Origin: Bacteroidota bacterium | Lineage (GTDB): Bacteria > Bacteroidota > Bacteroidia > JACCXN01 | Reading direction: 5' to 3' | Assembly: GCA_013696965.1 (NCBI GenBank) | Contig: JACCXN010000030.1 | Coordinates: forward strand, 13,382 to 77,381 | DNA: 64,000 nt | In this document: piece after piece, positions 3,710-64,000 of the stretch | Layout of the letters: every line of letters starts with the position of its first letter | Numbering within the stretch: position 1 is the first letter of the stretch | Notes under the pieces: generated by a model | The model's input: only the letters and a program-made list of their open reading frames with translations | What the model was told of the DNA's origin: nothing | Databases searched by the model: none | Program-made: the position numbers and the translations under genes

Positions 3710-4651
3710 ATGAAAATTGCTGTAATAGACTTAGGAACCAATACATTTAACCTGCTTATAGGGGAGGTAAATAATTTAAATCATTATCGAATCCTTTATA
3801 ATACAAAAGCCGCTGTACAACTAGGCAAGGGAGGCATAACCAAACGTATAATTACACCTGAGGCAATTAACCGAGGAGTAATTACAATTGGATCTTATTT
3901 ACAGATAATCTCCACTTACAATGTTGATAAAGTTTATGCTTATGCCACATCAGCTGTAAGAGGAGCTATTAATGGAAAAGATTTTACAGATCGGATAAAA
4001 ACAGAATTTAATCTTGATATTAATGTAATTTCGGGAGAAAAGGAAGCAGAGTTAATTTATTATGGTGTTAAGCTTGGGGTAAATTTAACGGATGAAACTT
4101 CTGTTATAATGGATATTGGAGGGGGAAGCACTGAATTTATAATATGCAACGCCTACCAGATTTTCTGGAAAAAAAGTTTTGATGTAGGAGCAGCCAGGAT
4201 ACTTGAAGCTTTTCAACCTTCAAATCCAATTAAAGTAGAGGAAATAAAAAAAATAGAAGATTATTTTAATGAAGAGCTTGAGGAGCTATTTGCAGCAATT
4301 GAGTTTCACCAGGCAAAAACTCTAATAGGATCAAGTGGCTCTTTTGATACTTTTGCTGAAATCATTGCCCACAAATTTTATGAGCCCTCAATCGTAGAAA
4401 ATATAACAGAATACACCTTTAACATTGGAGATTATCATATTATCCATGAACAGTTAATCAGATCAACCCGAGAGGAGAGATATAAAACAAAAGGGCTAAT
4501 ACCCATGCGTGTTGACATGATAGTAATTGCATCGGTTTTTACAAGTTTCATGTTAAAAAAGAATCAGATTTCCAATATGCGCTTATCTGCCTATTCTCTT
4601 AAAGAAGGTGTTCTAAATGAAGCAATTAACGGTGTGCTGGTGGAAGGTTAA
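3710..4651 (+). CDS. Ppx/GppA-family phosphatase (exopolyphosphatase-like)
   Basis: Member of the ASKHA-fold Ppx/GppA family, which hydrolyses polyphosphate or pppGpp in the cytoplasm. Visible motifs are the N-terminal phosphate-binding loop DLGTNTFNLL (residues 6-15), the second loop DIGGGSTEF and the adenosine/phosphate motif GSSGSFDTF. At 313 residues it has only the two-lobe catalytic core and lacks the extra C-terminal helical domains of E. coli Ppx (about 510 residues). This short form is common in Bacteroidota. Whether it prefers polyP or pppGpp cannot be decided here. Confidence 0.88.
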   Translation: MKIAVIDLGTNTFNLLIGEVNNLNHYRILYNTKAAVQLGKGGITKRIITPEAINRGVITIGSYLQIISTYNVDKVYAYATSAVRGAINGKDFTDRIKTEFNLDINVISGEKEAELIYYGVKLGVNLTDETSVIMDIGGGSTEFIICNAYQIFWKKSFDVGAARILEAFQPSNPIKVEEIKKIEDYFNEELEELFAAIEFHQAKTLIGSSGSFDTFAEIIAHKFYEPSIVENITEYTFNIGDYHIIHEQLIRSTREERYKTKGLIPMRVDMIVIASVFTSFMLKKNQISNMRLSAYSLKEGVLNEAINGVLVEG

Positions 4652-4681: not shown

Positions 4682-5080
4682 TCAGGAACATTCACATTTT
4701 TGCCCTACAACTTTAATATTAATAAGTGTTGCTGACTTTTCACATTTTTGGATTTCTAAAATTGCACTTTTCTTGTTTAAACCTGATTCTAAAACATAGG
4801 ATGGACAAGGCTTTATTCTTACCTTGCTTTGGCCAAAATCAACCTTCGCATTTTTAACTAAAGCCAATAAATCATTGTGAGAAATATCAAGACATTTTAA
4901 TTGACACGCTGCGTCCTTGCTAATTATTAATTCATGATCTTGAATTTCCTGAACCACCCTTTCTGCTGGAAGCCAACCTTTTAAATTGCGATCCCTATCT
5001 TTTATCAAAAGAAAATAAACAAGGACACTCCCAATTAAAAATCCGATAAAAAATTTAAAAAAACGATTGATTAAATCCAA
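4682..5080 (-). CDS. Small membrane-anchored protein, possible DUF4258
   Basis: A 132-residue protein with one N-terminal membrane segment (about residues 10-27) followed by a soluble, Cys-rich domain. The domain has six cysteines, two of them in a C-terminal CEC. The pattern DHELIISKDAACQLKC then SHNDLLALVKNA resembles DUF4258 proteins, but I am not certain of the family. It is convergent with ppx and lies 67 bases downstream of alanine dehydrogenase on the same strand, so co-transcription is possible. No function can be assigned. Confidence 0.75.
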   Translation of the reverse strand: MDLINRFFKFFIGFLIGSVLVYFLLIKDRDRNLKGWLPAERVVQEIQDHELIISKDAACQLKCLDISHNDLLALVKNAKVDFGQSKVRIKPCPSYVLESGLNKKSAILEIQKCEKSATLINIKVVGQKCECS

Positions 5081-13233: not shown

Positions 13234-13725
13234 TTGAATTTCAACACTATCCCTTTAGGCCGTTACCTTCATCTTATTTCAAAAGTTTATCTTGAGGCTT
13301 TCACCCATAAGCTGAATTATTTAGATATCGATAGGCATATTTATATTTTAACCTTAATTAAGGATGATGAGGAGATTTCACAAAAAGAGTTGGCTTGCCT
13401 CCTTGATATAGACAAGGTTACCATGAGCAGAATTATTGATTACCTGGTTAAAAACAAATACATTATTAGGAAACAGCACTCCTTGGATAGAAGGGCATTT
13501 TCACTGCTGTTAACTTCAAAGGCCCGGGAAATACTTCCTAAAATAAGGACCACAATCAATGAATTAAATAAAATTTCATTTCAAGGAATATCTGAAAGTG
13601 ACAAAGCCTGTTTTTTAAGTGTTTCAAGTAAAATTGCAACGAATTTAAATCGATTGCCTGTTGATGTTGTTCAGTTTAATTATAAAGTAGCTGTAAAAAA
13701 GAAAAAGACAAATAAAAAAATTTAA
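13234..13725 (+). CDS. MarR-family transcriptional regulator
   Basis: A 163-residue winged-helix regulator. The helix-turn-helix and wing are seen at about 48-95: ISQKELACLLDIDKVTMSRI, then a wing ending in SLDRRAFSLLLT, a variant of the DxRxxxxxLT motif. The start is TTG at 13234, 18 bases after the -7 box; no ATG lies near. Its stop overlaps the adaptor start (TAATG at 13723-13727), so it is co-translated with the efflux genes and very likely their local repressor. The C-terminus is rich in Lys. Confidence 0.88.
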   Translation: MNFNTIPLGRYLHLISKVYLEAFTHKLNYLDIDRHIYILTLIKDDEEISQKELACLLDIDKVTMSRIIDYLVKNKYIIRKQHSLDRRAFSLLLTSKAREILPKIRTTINELNKISFQGISESDKACFLSVSSKIATNLNRLPVDVVQFNYKVAVKKKKTNKKI

Positions 13726-14801
13726 TGAGACTACTTAAAAACCTTCCATTTATTCTTATTGTTGTTGCCATTTATGGCTGTGGGTCGGATGCAGAAACCA
13801 GTAAAAAACAACCTATGCCAAGTTCTTCACTAACAGTTGAAGGTGAAATTGCACAAAAAGTGTGGAGCAAAGAACTGGTAAGTTCCACTGGCACTACCCT
13901 TGCCAATGAAGAGATGAATATTCAAAGTGAGGTAAGTGGCAGGATTATTAAGATTAATTTTGAAGAAGGAAGTACTGTTAATAAAGGACAGATATTGGTA
14001 AAGCTGGATGACCTGGAGCTTAAATCCTTGCTTCAGAAATCTGTTTTGGAAAAAAAACTGCTTGACAACAAAGAGAAAAGGCAAAAAAAACTGCTTGAAA
14101 TAGAGGCAATAAGCCAGGAGGAATACGATATTTCCCAGAATGCAGTAGATGTATTAAGCGCCCATATTGCAATGTTAAGGGCTCAAATACAAAAAACTGA
14201 GATTGTAGCTCCATTTAATGGAAGAATTGGATTAAGAAACGTGAGTGAGGGAGCCATAATATCTCCAACAACATTAATTGCTTCGCTTCAAGATTACTCT
14301 TTAATTAAACTAGATTTTTCTGTTCCTGAAAAATATGCCAGCCAAATAAATTCAAACACAAAAATTTTATTCACATTAGAGGGCTCAGAGGAAAAATATG
14401 AAGCAAAAGTACATGCCATAGAGCCTAGAATAGACCCTGTAAACAGATCACTAAAAATTCGCGCCATTTGTTCAAATAAAGATAGAAAGATACTTCCGGG
14501 GGCATTTGCAAATGTGCAAGTACAACTTGGAGAGGCAACCTTATCCATTATGATTCCAACCCAAGCAGTAATTCCAGATATAAGTGGAGCAAAGGTTTAT
14601 ATTTTAAAAAATGGCAAAGCCAGCCTATCACCAGTTACAACAGGGCTAAGAACTGACATTGAAATCAGTATTACCTCCGGGATTAATGAGGGCGATACGG
14701 TTATAACTTCAGGAATATTACAACTAAAACCAGGTATGCCAGTACTTGTAAACCTTTCGGCATTAAATACAGATCAAAAAAAGGTAAGAATACTAAAGTA
14801 G
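13725..14801 (+). CDS. RND efflux periplasmic adaptor subunit (MFP), lipoprotein
   Basis: Membrane fusion protein that bridges the inner-membrane RND pump and the outer-membrane TolC-like channel. The 358 residues have an N-terminal signal ending in a lipobox-like IYGC (Cys near 19), so it is probably lipid-anchored. A biotinyl/lipoyl half-motif (SGRIIKINFEEGSTVNKGQ), an alpha-helical hairpin (about 100-150), the second half-motif (TEIVAPFNGRIGLRNVSEG) and beta-barrel domains follow. It belongs to the AcrA/MexE class. It starts within the MarR stop codon and is followed 28 bases later by the pump gene. Confidence 0.93.
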   Translation: MRLLKNLPFILIVVAIYGCGSDAETSKKQPMPSSSLTVEGEIAQKVWSKELVSSTGTTLANEEMNIQSEVSGRIIKINFEEGSTVNKGQILVKLDDLELKSLLQKSVLEKKLLDNKEKRQKKLLEIEAISQEEYDISQNAVDVLSAHIAMLRAQIQKTEIVAPFNGRIGLRNVSEGAIISPTTLIASLQDYSLIKLDFSVPEKYASQINSNTKILFTLEGSEEKYEAKVHAIEPRIDPVNRSLKIRAICSNKDRKILPGAFANVQVQLGEATLSIMIPTQAVIPDISGAKVYILKNGKASLSPVTTGLRTDIEISITSGINEGDTVITSGILQLKPGMPVLVNLSALNTDQKKVRILK

Positions 14802-14829: not shown

Positions 14830-17681
14830 ATGAATCTTCCCGATATAAGCATTCGAAGACCAGTATTGACTACCGTTTTTTCAATAGTTATAGTTTTATT
14901 TGGAATTATAGGCTATTTTTTTCTTGGGGTAAGGGAATATCCGAGTGTTGACCCTCCTATGATAACTGTTAGCACCTCTTATACCGGAGCTAATTCAGAT
15001 GTTATGGAATCTCAGATAACAGAGGTTTTAGAAGAATCCATCAATGGTATTGACGGAATTAAGTCACTTACTTCAGTTAGCAGCGATGGAAGGAGCTCAA
15101 TAACGGTTGAATTTGGACTTGAAACTGATCTTGAAGCAGCAGCCAATGATGTTCGGGATAAAGTTTCACGCGCTCAAAGAAATCTTCCCCCTGATGCCGA
15201 CCCACCAACAGTTTCAAAATCGGATGCAAATGCTGGACCTATTCTTTCCCTTACAGTTCAAAGTGATTCACGAAGTCTGCTGGATTTAACTGCAATTGGA
15301 AATAATCTATTTAAAGAAAGGTTACAGACAATTCCAGGGGTAAGTGAAGTGAGGATATGGGGGGAAAAAAAGTATGCAATGCGCATGATTATGGATCCTT
15401 CAAAGATGGCTTCCTTAAATATAACTCCAGTGGATATTCGCAATGCATTGCAGCAGGAGAATGTAGAGCTACCAAGTGGAAGAATTGAAGGACAGGCAAC
15501 GGAATTATCTATTAGAACATCCGGGAGACTTGAAACTTCTGAAGAATTCAACAATTTAATTATTCGTGAACAAAATGGTGTAATTACTCGGTTTAAAGAT
15601 GTTGGAAAAGCAGTGCTTGCCCCTGAGAACGAAAGGACCTTATTAAGGGGAAATAATGCACTACCTATGATTGGCATTGCCCTTACCCCACAGCCTGGCA
15701 GTAATTACATTGCAATTGCTGATGAGTTTTACAAACGGGTAGAGGAAATTAAAAAGGATTTGCCAAAAGATTTGAAATTAGGAATGGCACTTGATGCAAC
15801 AAAGGGTATACGTAAAGCTATCGTTGAAGTTCAGGATACTATTTTAATTGCTTTTATCCATGTTGTACTTGTAATATTCTTTTTTCTAAGGAATTGGCGT
15901 TCCACACTTATTCCTGTAATCGCAATCCCAATTTCACTTGTTAGCTCCTTTTTTATTATGTATGCAGCCGGATTTTCCATTAATATTCTAAGTTTGCTTG
16001 GAATAGTATTGGCAACGGGTTTGGTTGTTGATGATGCAATTGTAGTTTTGGAAAACATCTATCAAAAAATCGAAAAGGGGATGAATCCAAAGGAAGCTGC
16101 ATTTAAAGGTTCGGCAGAAATATTTTTTGCGGTAATTTCAACCACCCTTACGCTTGTTGCTGTGTTTTTGCCTATAATATTTTTACAGGGTTTAACAGGA
16201 AGGTTATTCCGGGAATTTGGTATTGTGGTTGCGGGTTCTGTTATTGTTTCAACTTTTATTTCCCTTACATTAACTCCAATGATGTGTTCAAGGCTCCTCA
16301 GAGCTCATTCAAACAAGAACAGGTTTTATGCAGTTACAGAAAAATTTTTTAATAATCTCACCGACAGTTATTCAGGTTTTCTTGGATCATTTATGAAAAA
16401 AAGATGGCTTGCCATTGTTCTAATTTTGGCGCTTCATCTGCTGCTAATACTGGATTTGTAAGGGTTACTTTAATTGATGCACAAAATAGGGAAAGAACAC
16501 AAATGGAAATTGCTGACCTTCTCACAGAGCAAATGAAACAATTTACAGGAGCAAGAACTATTGTTACTCAGGAACAAACAATAGGAGGAAGTAGAAGAGG
16601 TGGACTTCCTGTACAGTTTGTAATCCAATCGCAAAATTTTGAAAAATTGAAGGCCATTATCCCTGAATTTCTTGAAAAGGCGCGCGAGAACCCAGCTTTT
16701 CAGGTTGTAGATATTGATCTTAAATTTAATAAACCGGAAATGCGTATAGATATTGACAGGAACAGGGCCCGTATGCTTGGGGTTTCTGTGCTGGATGTTG
16801 CGCAAACTTTGCAACTATATTTCTCAGATCAAAGAATGGGGTACTTTATAATGGAAGGCAAACAGTATCAGGTAATAGGCCAGGCTATTTTGGATAGTAG
16901 AAATGAACCCACAGATCTTAAATCAGTTTTTGTTAAAAACACAAATGGTGAAATGATACAGATAGATAATTTAATTCAAATTACTGAACAAAGTAACCCC
17001 CCAATGCGTTACCGGTACAATAGATATGTTTCTGCTACCATTTCTGCAGGAGTTGTACCAGGAACAACCATAGGACAAGGAATAGAAGCAATGCAGGAAG
17101 TTGCATCAACTGTTTTGGATGAAACATTTACAACTGAGCTTGTGGGAACATCCAAAGAATTTGCTGAAAGCTCCTCTACCCTATTATTTGCTTTTATTCT
17201 GGCCCTGGTTTTAGTGTTTTTGGTTTTGGCTGCGCAGTTTGAAAGTTTTTCCGATCCCCTGATAATAATGTTTACAGTTCCGCTTGCTCTTGCAGGTGCT
17301 TTGCTTTCATTGTGGATGAGCGGTTCTACTTTAAATATTTTCAGCCAAATTGGCATTATTGTTCTTGTGGGAATAGTTACTAAGAATGGAATTTTAATTG
17401 TGGAGTTTGCAAATCAGAAAAAAGAGGAAGGCTTAAATACTTTAGATGCCGTAATGCAAGCCTCTGCCTCTCGCTTAAGGCCTATTTTGATGACAAGTTT
17501 CGCTACTATTCTTGGAGCTTTGCCTATTGCCCTTGCATTGGGAGCTTCATCAACAAGTAGAGTTTCAATGGGAATAGCAATTATTGGCGGATTATTATTC
17601 TCTCTAATCCTCACCCTGATTGTTATTCCGGCACTTTATACCTATTTATCAGGACATCCAAAGACTTCCCCAGATGCATAA
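14830..17681 (+). pseudogene. RND efflux pump inner-membrane subunit (AcrB/MexF type), broken by internal deletion
   Basis: Two frames together encode an HAE1-type RND proton antiporter. The first (14830-16461) holds the N-terminal half, starting NLPDISIRRPVLTTVFSI, with the TM4 segment GLVVDDAIVVLENI, and is authentic to about residue 533 (RWLAIVLIL). The second, in another frame, resumes at 16428 with GASSAANTGFVRVTL and runs to 17681 with the C-terminal membrane half. The two parts sum to about 950 residues against roughly 1030-1050 in intact pumps. Comparison with AcrB places the gap from TM7 to the middle of the PC1 porter subdomain, about 80-90 residues. The loss also shifts the frame, so no functional pump is expected. 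An ATG at 16404 is not a genuine start. An assembly error is the alternative. Confidence 0.88.
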
Positions 17682-18984
17682 AATTAAGCTATTTATAATC
17701 CTTTTTCTGGCAGTTAGTACTTTTAATGCAGATGCACAAGAGGTTATGGACATTCAACAGGCCATTGACATTGCTTTAAAGAACAATTATTCCATTGTAA
17801 TTGCGCGAAATGAAGCACTTATAGCAGAAACAAACAACACTCCTGGAAATGCAGGATTTCTACCTCAAGTGGGAGCAAATTTTTTTAGAGGAGAAAACCT
17901 CAACTATACCAGGCAGGAATTTTTTAATGGTGAGGTGAGGGAAGGTTCAAATGTTAAAACCAGCAATATGAATGCAAACATTCAATTGAACTGGACACTA
18001 TTTGATGGTTTTAACATGTTTGCAACCAGAAAGATGCTGCAGGAATTTGAAGATATTGGAATCTTGAACACAAAAATAAAAGTGGATCTTACCATTTCAC
18101 AGGTTATTGCTACTTATTATGCAATTGTACAAAAGCAAAAGCAAATTAAAACCATTAAGAATGCAATTGAAATTTCCCAGGAAAGAAAAAGAATTGCAAA
18201 AGAACGGCTGAATATAGGCGCTGGGTCAGGTTTGGAAATGTTACAGGCAAGCGTTGACATAAACTCCGACAGTTCTGCTCTTTTACGCCAGGAATTTGAT
18301 TTAATAAGAACTAAAGCAGCTTTGAATGAGCTGTTGATAAGGGATCCTGAGTTCGATTTTATTGTACCTGATCAGATTTTAATGAGAGAAGTACTTAAGT
18401 ATGAAGAACTCGCTCAAAAAGTATCTCAACAAAATCCTGAACTTTTAATTGCTCAAAGAAACAGCAGGATTGCCGATTTGAATTTAAAGCAATCGCAGTC
18501 TAGCATATACCCTACTATTTCAGTGAACTCAGGTTATGTGTACAGTAATTTTGAATCACAGCTTGGATTACTCCAATCCAACTTAAACCGGGGTGTAAAT
18601 TATGGATTAACGGCAAGTTGGGGTTTATTTAATGGTTTCACACAGAAAACCAGAAGAAAAGTTGCTCAAATTGAGATTATGAATCAGGATAACCTGCGTC
18701 AGCAAACTGAGCTTAGAGTAAAGAATGAGCTGTATCAAATTTACACCTCTTATATAACATCCAAATTACTTGTAGATATTGAAAAGAAAAACCTTGAAGT
18801 AGCTCAGCAAAACCTGAATGTGAGCACAGAGAAAATGAAGATTGGAACAATCACAGCAATTGAACTTCGTGAAGCTCAACGCAACCTGATTGATGCAGAA
18901 TTTCGCCTTATTATGACTGAATATGAAGCCAAGCTTTCTGAAACAGAATTGTTGAGATTAAGCGGACAACTAATTACAAAATAG
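17674..18984 (+). CDS. TolC-family outer membrane efflux channel
   Basis: Outer-membrane channel of the tripartite RND system. The start is ATG 17674, which gives a clean signal peptide (MHKIKLFIILFLAVSTFNADA). An upstream in-frame start at 17620 would lie inside the pump gene and spoil the signal. The mature protein (436 residues with signal) has the two repeated OEP domains with long helices, a beta segment in each half (NANIQLNWTLFDGF and GLTASWGLFNGF) and the C-terminal LSETELLRLSG. It overlaps the pump stop by 8 bases. It stays intact although the pump is broken. Confidence 0.92.
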   Translation: MHKIKLFIILFLAVSTFNADAQEVMDIQQAIDIALKNNYSIVIARNEALIAETNNTPGNAGFLPQVGANFFRGENLNYTRQEFFNGEVREGSNVKTSNMNANIQLNWTLFDGFNMFATRKMLQEFEDIGILNTKIKVDLTISQVIATYYAIVQKQKQIKTIKNAIEISQERKRIAKERLNIGAGSGLEMLQASVDINSDSSALLRQEFDLIRTKAALNELLIRDPEFDFIVPDQILMREVLKYEELAQKVSQQNPELLIAQRNSRIADLNLKQSQSSIYPTISVNSGYVYSNFESQLGLLQSNLNRGVNYGLTASWGLFNGFTQKTRRKVAQIEIMNQDNLRQQTELRVKNELYQIYTSYITSKLLVDIEKKNLEVAQQNLNVSTEKMKIGTITAIELREAQRNLIDAEFRLIMTEYEAKLSETELLRLSGQLITK

Positions 18985-63120: not shown

Positions 63121-63218
63121 TTTAAAATGCTCCTAAAAGTAACGCTTTATTTTAATTGAATCGTCCTGATTTTTCTTGAAACCATTTCTCAAAATCCTCT
63201 GCATTGTCTTATTTTACC

Positions 63219-63226
63219 TACCTTTG
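63219..63226 (+). promoter_or_regulatory. Promoter -7 box of the radical SAM remnant
   Basis: A perfect TACCTTTG ends 4 bases before ATG 63231, so the start would be leaderless. It shows that ATG 63231, and not the TTG at 63204, was the original start. Confidence 0.5.
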
Positions 63227-63230
63227 CAAC

Positions 63231-63707
63231 ATGCCAGGGTATAATGATAATACTATTAAAGGGAGAGGAGCTCAAAGCAATCCTGCTAACCCATTTATTA
63301 AACAAAAGTATGTATCAGAGCATATTGAAGGAATTGATGAATTTGGTTTACCTTCTTCCAAAACTCAGTTCTTCATTGAAAATGCAAAAAAAATTGTAAA
63401 TAAGGTGGACAGTCCTGATTTGGGCTTGATGTTTTCTATGAACCCCTACCAGGGATGTGAACACGGCTGTGTTTATTGCTATGCAAGAAACAGCCATCAG
63501 TATTGGGGATTAAATGCCGGTCTTGATTTTGAAAGTAAAATTATAATTAAAGAAAATGCAGCTGAATTATTGGAGAAGGCTTTTCTTAATAAAAATTGGA
63601 ATAAAGAACAGTCTCAAAAATTTGCAATTATGCTATTCTTTTGCCTGTTGGTTATAATTGTAGCTTTCTTTATTGAACAGGAAAAGAAAAACAAAAATTT
63701 AATTTAA
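63231..63707 (+). pseudogene. PA0069-family radical SAM protein, truncated and joined to a foreign membrane tail
   Basis: From ATG 63231 the first 120 or so residues match the N-terminal third of PA0069/SplB-like radical SAM proteins. They show KGRGAQSNPANPF, then MNPYQGCEHGCVYCYARNSH with the CxxxCxxC that binds the 4Fe-4S cluster, and GLDFESKIIIKENAAELL. After FLNKNW the sequence changes to NKEQSQKFAIMLFFCLLVII and a basic end, a membrane segment not found in this family. Intact proteins have about 350 residues. The product lacks most of the TIM barrel and cannot be a working enzyme. The tail may be the end of a small membrane protein gene that once lay upstream of the DUF2158 gene. Confidence 0.8.
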
Positions 63708-63718
63708 TTTAATTTAAT

Positions 63719-63852
63719 ATGGAACAAAAATTTAAATCAGGTGACCTGGTAATAACAATTTAAAAGAAGTATATTGTGAATGGTTTCAAGAGGGAAATTT
63801 AAAAGGAGCTAAATTTCATCAGGACACACTGGAACTGTGGCAAGATTATTAA
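63719..63852 (+). pseudogene. DUF2158 (YodC-like) gene with internal deletion
   Basis: The first codons give MEQKFKSGDLV, the usual start of DUF2158 proteins, and a stop follows at 63761-63763. In another frame, from 63754, NNLKEVYCEWFQEG then NLKGAKFHQDTLEL continue the family pattern to TAA 63850-63852. The missing middle (the usual LKSGGPKMTV stretch) amounts to roughly 15-20 codons. The upstream spacer carries four tandem copies of TTTAA. Confidence 0.75.
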
Positions 63853-63915
63853 AAAAAAGCCCAGCTGTTAAGCCTGAGGCCACTGAAAAAGTCTTTTTAA
63901 GAATTAAATGTTAAT

Positions 63916-63955: not shown

Positions 63956-64000
63956 GTATTTTGTATCAGATTCAAAAGCCTAATATACATGCTGGTACAA

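Follow-up and report, generated by a model that had tools for sequence, protein, structure and literature searches.

A split multidrug efflux permease gene in a Bacteroidota genome: a probable recent internal deletion or an assembly fault

A broken permease gene within a MarR-adaptor-permease-TolC locus

The locus described here, in a window of 64,000 nucleotides (the whole stretch of DNA that was analysed, to which all coordinates refer unless another contig is named), raises the question of whether a multidrug efflux operon has lost its pump through a recent deletion, or whether the break arose during assembly. The permease gene (14830-17681; AcrB-type, HAE-1 class of RND transporters) is divided between two open reading frames of 543 and 425 amino acids, which lie in different frames. 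The following features were distinguished:

13234-13725, + strand: MarR-family regulator, intact open reading frame; MarR/SlyA-type NCBIfam matches below cut-off; homologue 5' of the adaptor in 16 of 80 related loci
13725-14801, + strand: RND periplasmic adaptor (membrane fusion protein), intact; TIGR01730, 244.6 bits against a cut-off of 94.9; 5' of the pump in 70 of 80 related loci
14830-16461, + strand: 5' part of the RND permease gene; PN/DN domains, TM1-TM6 and the start of TM7; NF033617 positions 2-536 of 1009, ACR_tran positions 3-539 of 1021
16404-17681, + strand: 3' part of the RND permease gene; rest of PC1, PC2, DC, TM8-TM12; NF033617 positions 603-1008 of 1009, ACR_tran positions 608-1020 of 1021
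16424-16430, + strand: deletion junction; about 208 bases absent by alignment with intact relatives
17674-18984, + strand: TolC-family outer-membrane channel, intact; TIGR01844, E 3.7e-35; 3' of the pump in 55 of 80 related loci

A full-length ACR_tran domain with twelve transmembrane helices in one frame is not present, profile positions 540-607 being missing and the remainder divided between two frames. Since both halves are strong, collinear matches to the same family, the split is not a chance arrangement. The observation of a split permease gene is confirmed, and the collinear matches in differing frames bear out the earlier note, which had described an out-of-frame internal deletion in an RND pump gene. 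Past the junction the 5' open reading frame continues for about 10-11 out-of-frame residues and then stops; the frame of the 3' part is open from about 16356 and has an ATG at 16404, while its true homology begins at about 16425. The switch could lie anywhere in 16424-16430, because the upstream codon of the right frame (AAT) mismatches a conserved Gly and the next codons of the left frame match loosely. This agrees with the previously proposed interval (16420-16435) and, nearly to the residue, with the proposed ends: for RWLAIVLIL and GASSAANTGF the alignment gives a left part running to RWLAIVLI and a right part starting from FGASSAANTGF.

The two halves belong to one gene, as identities of the N- and C-terminal halves to relatives are correlated (r = 0.87, n = 77) and GC content by codon position is nearly equal between them. 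On the same grounds a chimera of two different pumps was ruled out. The 80 related loci generally have the gene order adaptor-permease-TolC, in some cases preceded by a MarR gene; together with the correlated half identities, this points to one operon containing one damaged gene. The MarR, TIGR01730 adaptor and TIGR01844 TolC genes are whole, as the earlier note had held. A small GDCCVxC domain protein (NF041374; 19006-19245) is encoded directly downstream of the TolC gene.

Size and position of the lost segment

In the closest intact relatives (identity ~75% over the 5' half and ~72% over the 3' half), the alignment shows RWLAI and FGA..AANTGF joined by 69-70 residues in a single frame; among the 97 one-frame relatives compared, this gap is 67-74 residues long. 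Alignment with 77 intact relatives gave a net loss of 208 bases against 25 of them and 211 against 35 (range 193-214), so that most relatives indicate 205-211 bases, and the closest mostly 208. In 77 of 77 the loss equals 1 modulo 3 and is never a multiple of three. The earlier figure of 80-90 residues (240-270 bases) was therefore too large, the alignment giving 69-70 codons. Its placement in TM7 and part of PC1 was right: the lost residues correspond by alignment to about 545-612 of MdtB (9lyq), which takes in the larger share of TM7 and the beginning of PC1, with domain limits following those of AcrB.

Both halves fall into the same family of HAE-1 RND multidrug permeases (NF033617, RND_permease_2; solved relatives MdtB 9lyq, MexB and AcrB), with which the split permease shares an operon with adaptor and outer-membrane channel genes and the conserved relay residues. 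It differs from these permeases in lacking the segment matching MdtB about 545-612 and in being out of frame.

Age and origin of the break

Outside the junction the permease gene has no further stops or frame breaks in about 950 codons. Conserved-site violations were found in 1 of 201 columns at the 95% level, against a median of 2 for relatives (selected for having both halves in one frame). The proton-relay motifs GLVVDDAIVVLEN, GIVTKNGILIVEF and RPILMT are present across the two halves (DD in TM4, K in TM10, R/T in TM11; relay roles known from AcrB). An old, long disused and decaying pseudogene would explain the destroyed reading frame, but is very improbable given the lack of additional lesions, a violation count below the relatives' median, the preserved relay motifs and the intact rest of the operon. 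The lesion is disabling, while the gene is otherwise conserved and is intact in relatives, which is the pattern of a recent pseudogene. Since the halves are well conserved and the neighbouring MarR, adaptor and TolC genes undamaged, the event is either recent or an artefact of assembly or strain mixture; measured against the divergence between this gene and the relatives compared, the loss is young, or else it is not real. The alternative put forward previously (recent loss or assembly error) thus fits the data, with no decay elsewhere in the gene. The only site changed among those conserved at 98% is residue 344 of the 5' half (15859-15861), where Leu in a membrane segment is replaced by His.

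We consider it probable that the permease gene of a chromosomal MarR-adaptor-RND permease-TolC operon was hit by a recent internal deletion of ~208 bases; no related DNA was found in plasmids. The less probable, yet still serious, alternative is that the organism's gene is intact and that the break is an assembly or consensus artefact, produced by chimeric reads, by gap closing over a short overlap, or by the assembler picking a minority strain. The assembly is a draft (106 contigs, 2.08% estimated contamination), both permease halves show no decay, and a gene on another contig bears two small frame breaks; moreover, because the permease contig ends in a truncated radical SAM gene of PA0069 type, local misassembly retains a real share of the probability. 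Against an artefact, the window contains no N bases and no leftover contig bears the missing piece: the segment is absent from all 106 contigs, whereas the same query detected it in three relatives used as a positive control, by which a second copy in the genome was also ruled out. The alignment with intact pumps proposed in the earlier note defined the missing bases (~208). Around the junction, no direct repeat reaching 10 bases was found. Intact relatives have no more than 4 bases in common at the corresponding ends, so that the sequence common to both flanks can here have measured about 8 bases at most (TTTTGGCG, within which the suggested TTGG and GGCG fall), and a collapsed long repeat does not readily account for the loss.

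Frame switches were also scanned in 457 kb of the genome with a simple coding-frame model, which recovers the known permease break. In most other irregular switches, a start codon coincides with or follows the stop of the preceding frame, and these were regarded as normal borders between adjacent genes; among the five with real overlap, which were read, one was broken (an oxidoreductase-like gene). Since the scan gave only the permease break and this one other broken gene, frame errors are not widespread in the assembly. Rare frame breaks and the lack of a direct repeat longer than about 8 bases favour a real deletion, which was probably formed by ordinary short-homology joining (illegitimate or replication-slippage). 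We infer with moderate confidence the deletion's existence in the organism, its formation and the loss of function, the weighing of a real deletion against an artefact being a judgement.

Irregular genes were also observed elsewhere. The FAD-oxidoreductase-like gene (L119, 4149-5301, contig C57 of genome G000) is apparently disrupted by one small frame shift near 4435 and another near 4990, and its two later pieces have no Pfam match. The PA0069-family radical SAM gene (63204-63707), the genome's sole match to this family, covers only profile positions 1-117 of 348 and passes from near 63609 into unrelated sequence and a stop; the contig ends at window position 64000. Close to this end (63722-63853), a possible small gene without Pfam support extends over two frames (MEQKFKSGDLVITI, then KEVYCEWFQEGNLKGAKFHQDTLELWQDY) and resembles a YodC/DUF2158-type protein.

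Predicted consequences for the efflux system

As the number of missing bases is no multiple of three, translation begun at the normal start would stop about 30 bases past the junction, and the predicted 5' product (543 residues) would comprise membrane helices TM1-TM6 followed by a hydrophobic out-of-frame tail. With the downstream half lacking TM7 and the first part of PC1, no working trimeric pump would be possible, while the adaptor and the channel could still be made. The earlier claim that the operon now provides an adaptor and a channel with no pump thus stands as regards the intact adaptor and channel genes and the broken permease frame; the loss of the pump itself is a prediction.

That the halves still function, either as separate proteins or linked through slippage at an A7 run (16396-16402) that lies in both open frames, is very unlikely. 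The 5' product does end in a hydrophobic run (RWLAIVLILALHLLLILDL) and the 3' frame, open well upstream, has its own ATG; however, a joined product would still lack TM7 and about 50 PC1 residues and would have an inverted second-half topology, the A7 run is absent at the matching position in the closest relatives displayed, and no similar split was found in relatives. The sole other half-only relative (L084), in a count made outside the source genome's own pieces, stops at a contig end. Neither half, alone or joined, should make a pump. It is even less to be expected that the 543-residue half, its hydrophobic tail replacing TM7, might persist as a half-size RND protein with some role, by analogy with SecD/SecF-type halves.

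Whether an ordinary and probably recent inactivation of a multidrug efflux permease or a fault of assembly, the break is of an already known kind, with nothing new in it. One report (PMC9241588) describes truncation as a common mode of bacterial evolution; literature searches gave general background only. The likeness to bacterial gene inactivation by truncation lies in a recent lesion of an otherwise conserved gene, whereas the present case concerns a Bacteroidota genome rather than a host-adapted pathogen, and a lesion seen in an assembly. If real, it would add to the examples of recent efflux pump loss; in practice, it calls for caution in annotation and assembly.

The split permease is the only one of its kind in the genome, so that the bacterium, if the deletion is real, would have lost its only such permease while keeping the adaptor, the channel and two other RND pumps. 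The permeases of both of these are intact: (i) a CusA/CzcA-like permease, assigned to this type by sequence and neighbours, with its own adaptor-like and TolC-like genes, and (ii) a permease of 1142 residues with an adaptor upstream. Both are only about 28-29% identical to the split permease (over its first half).
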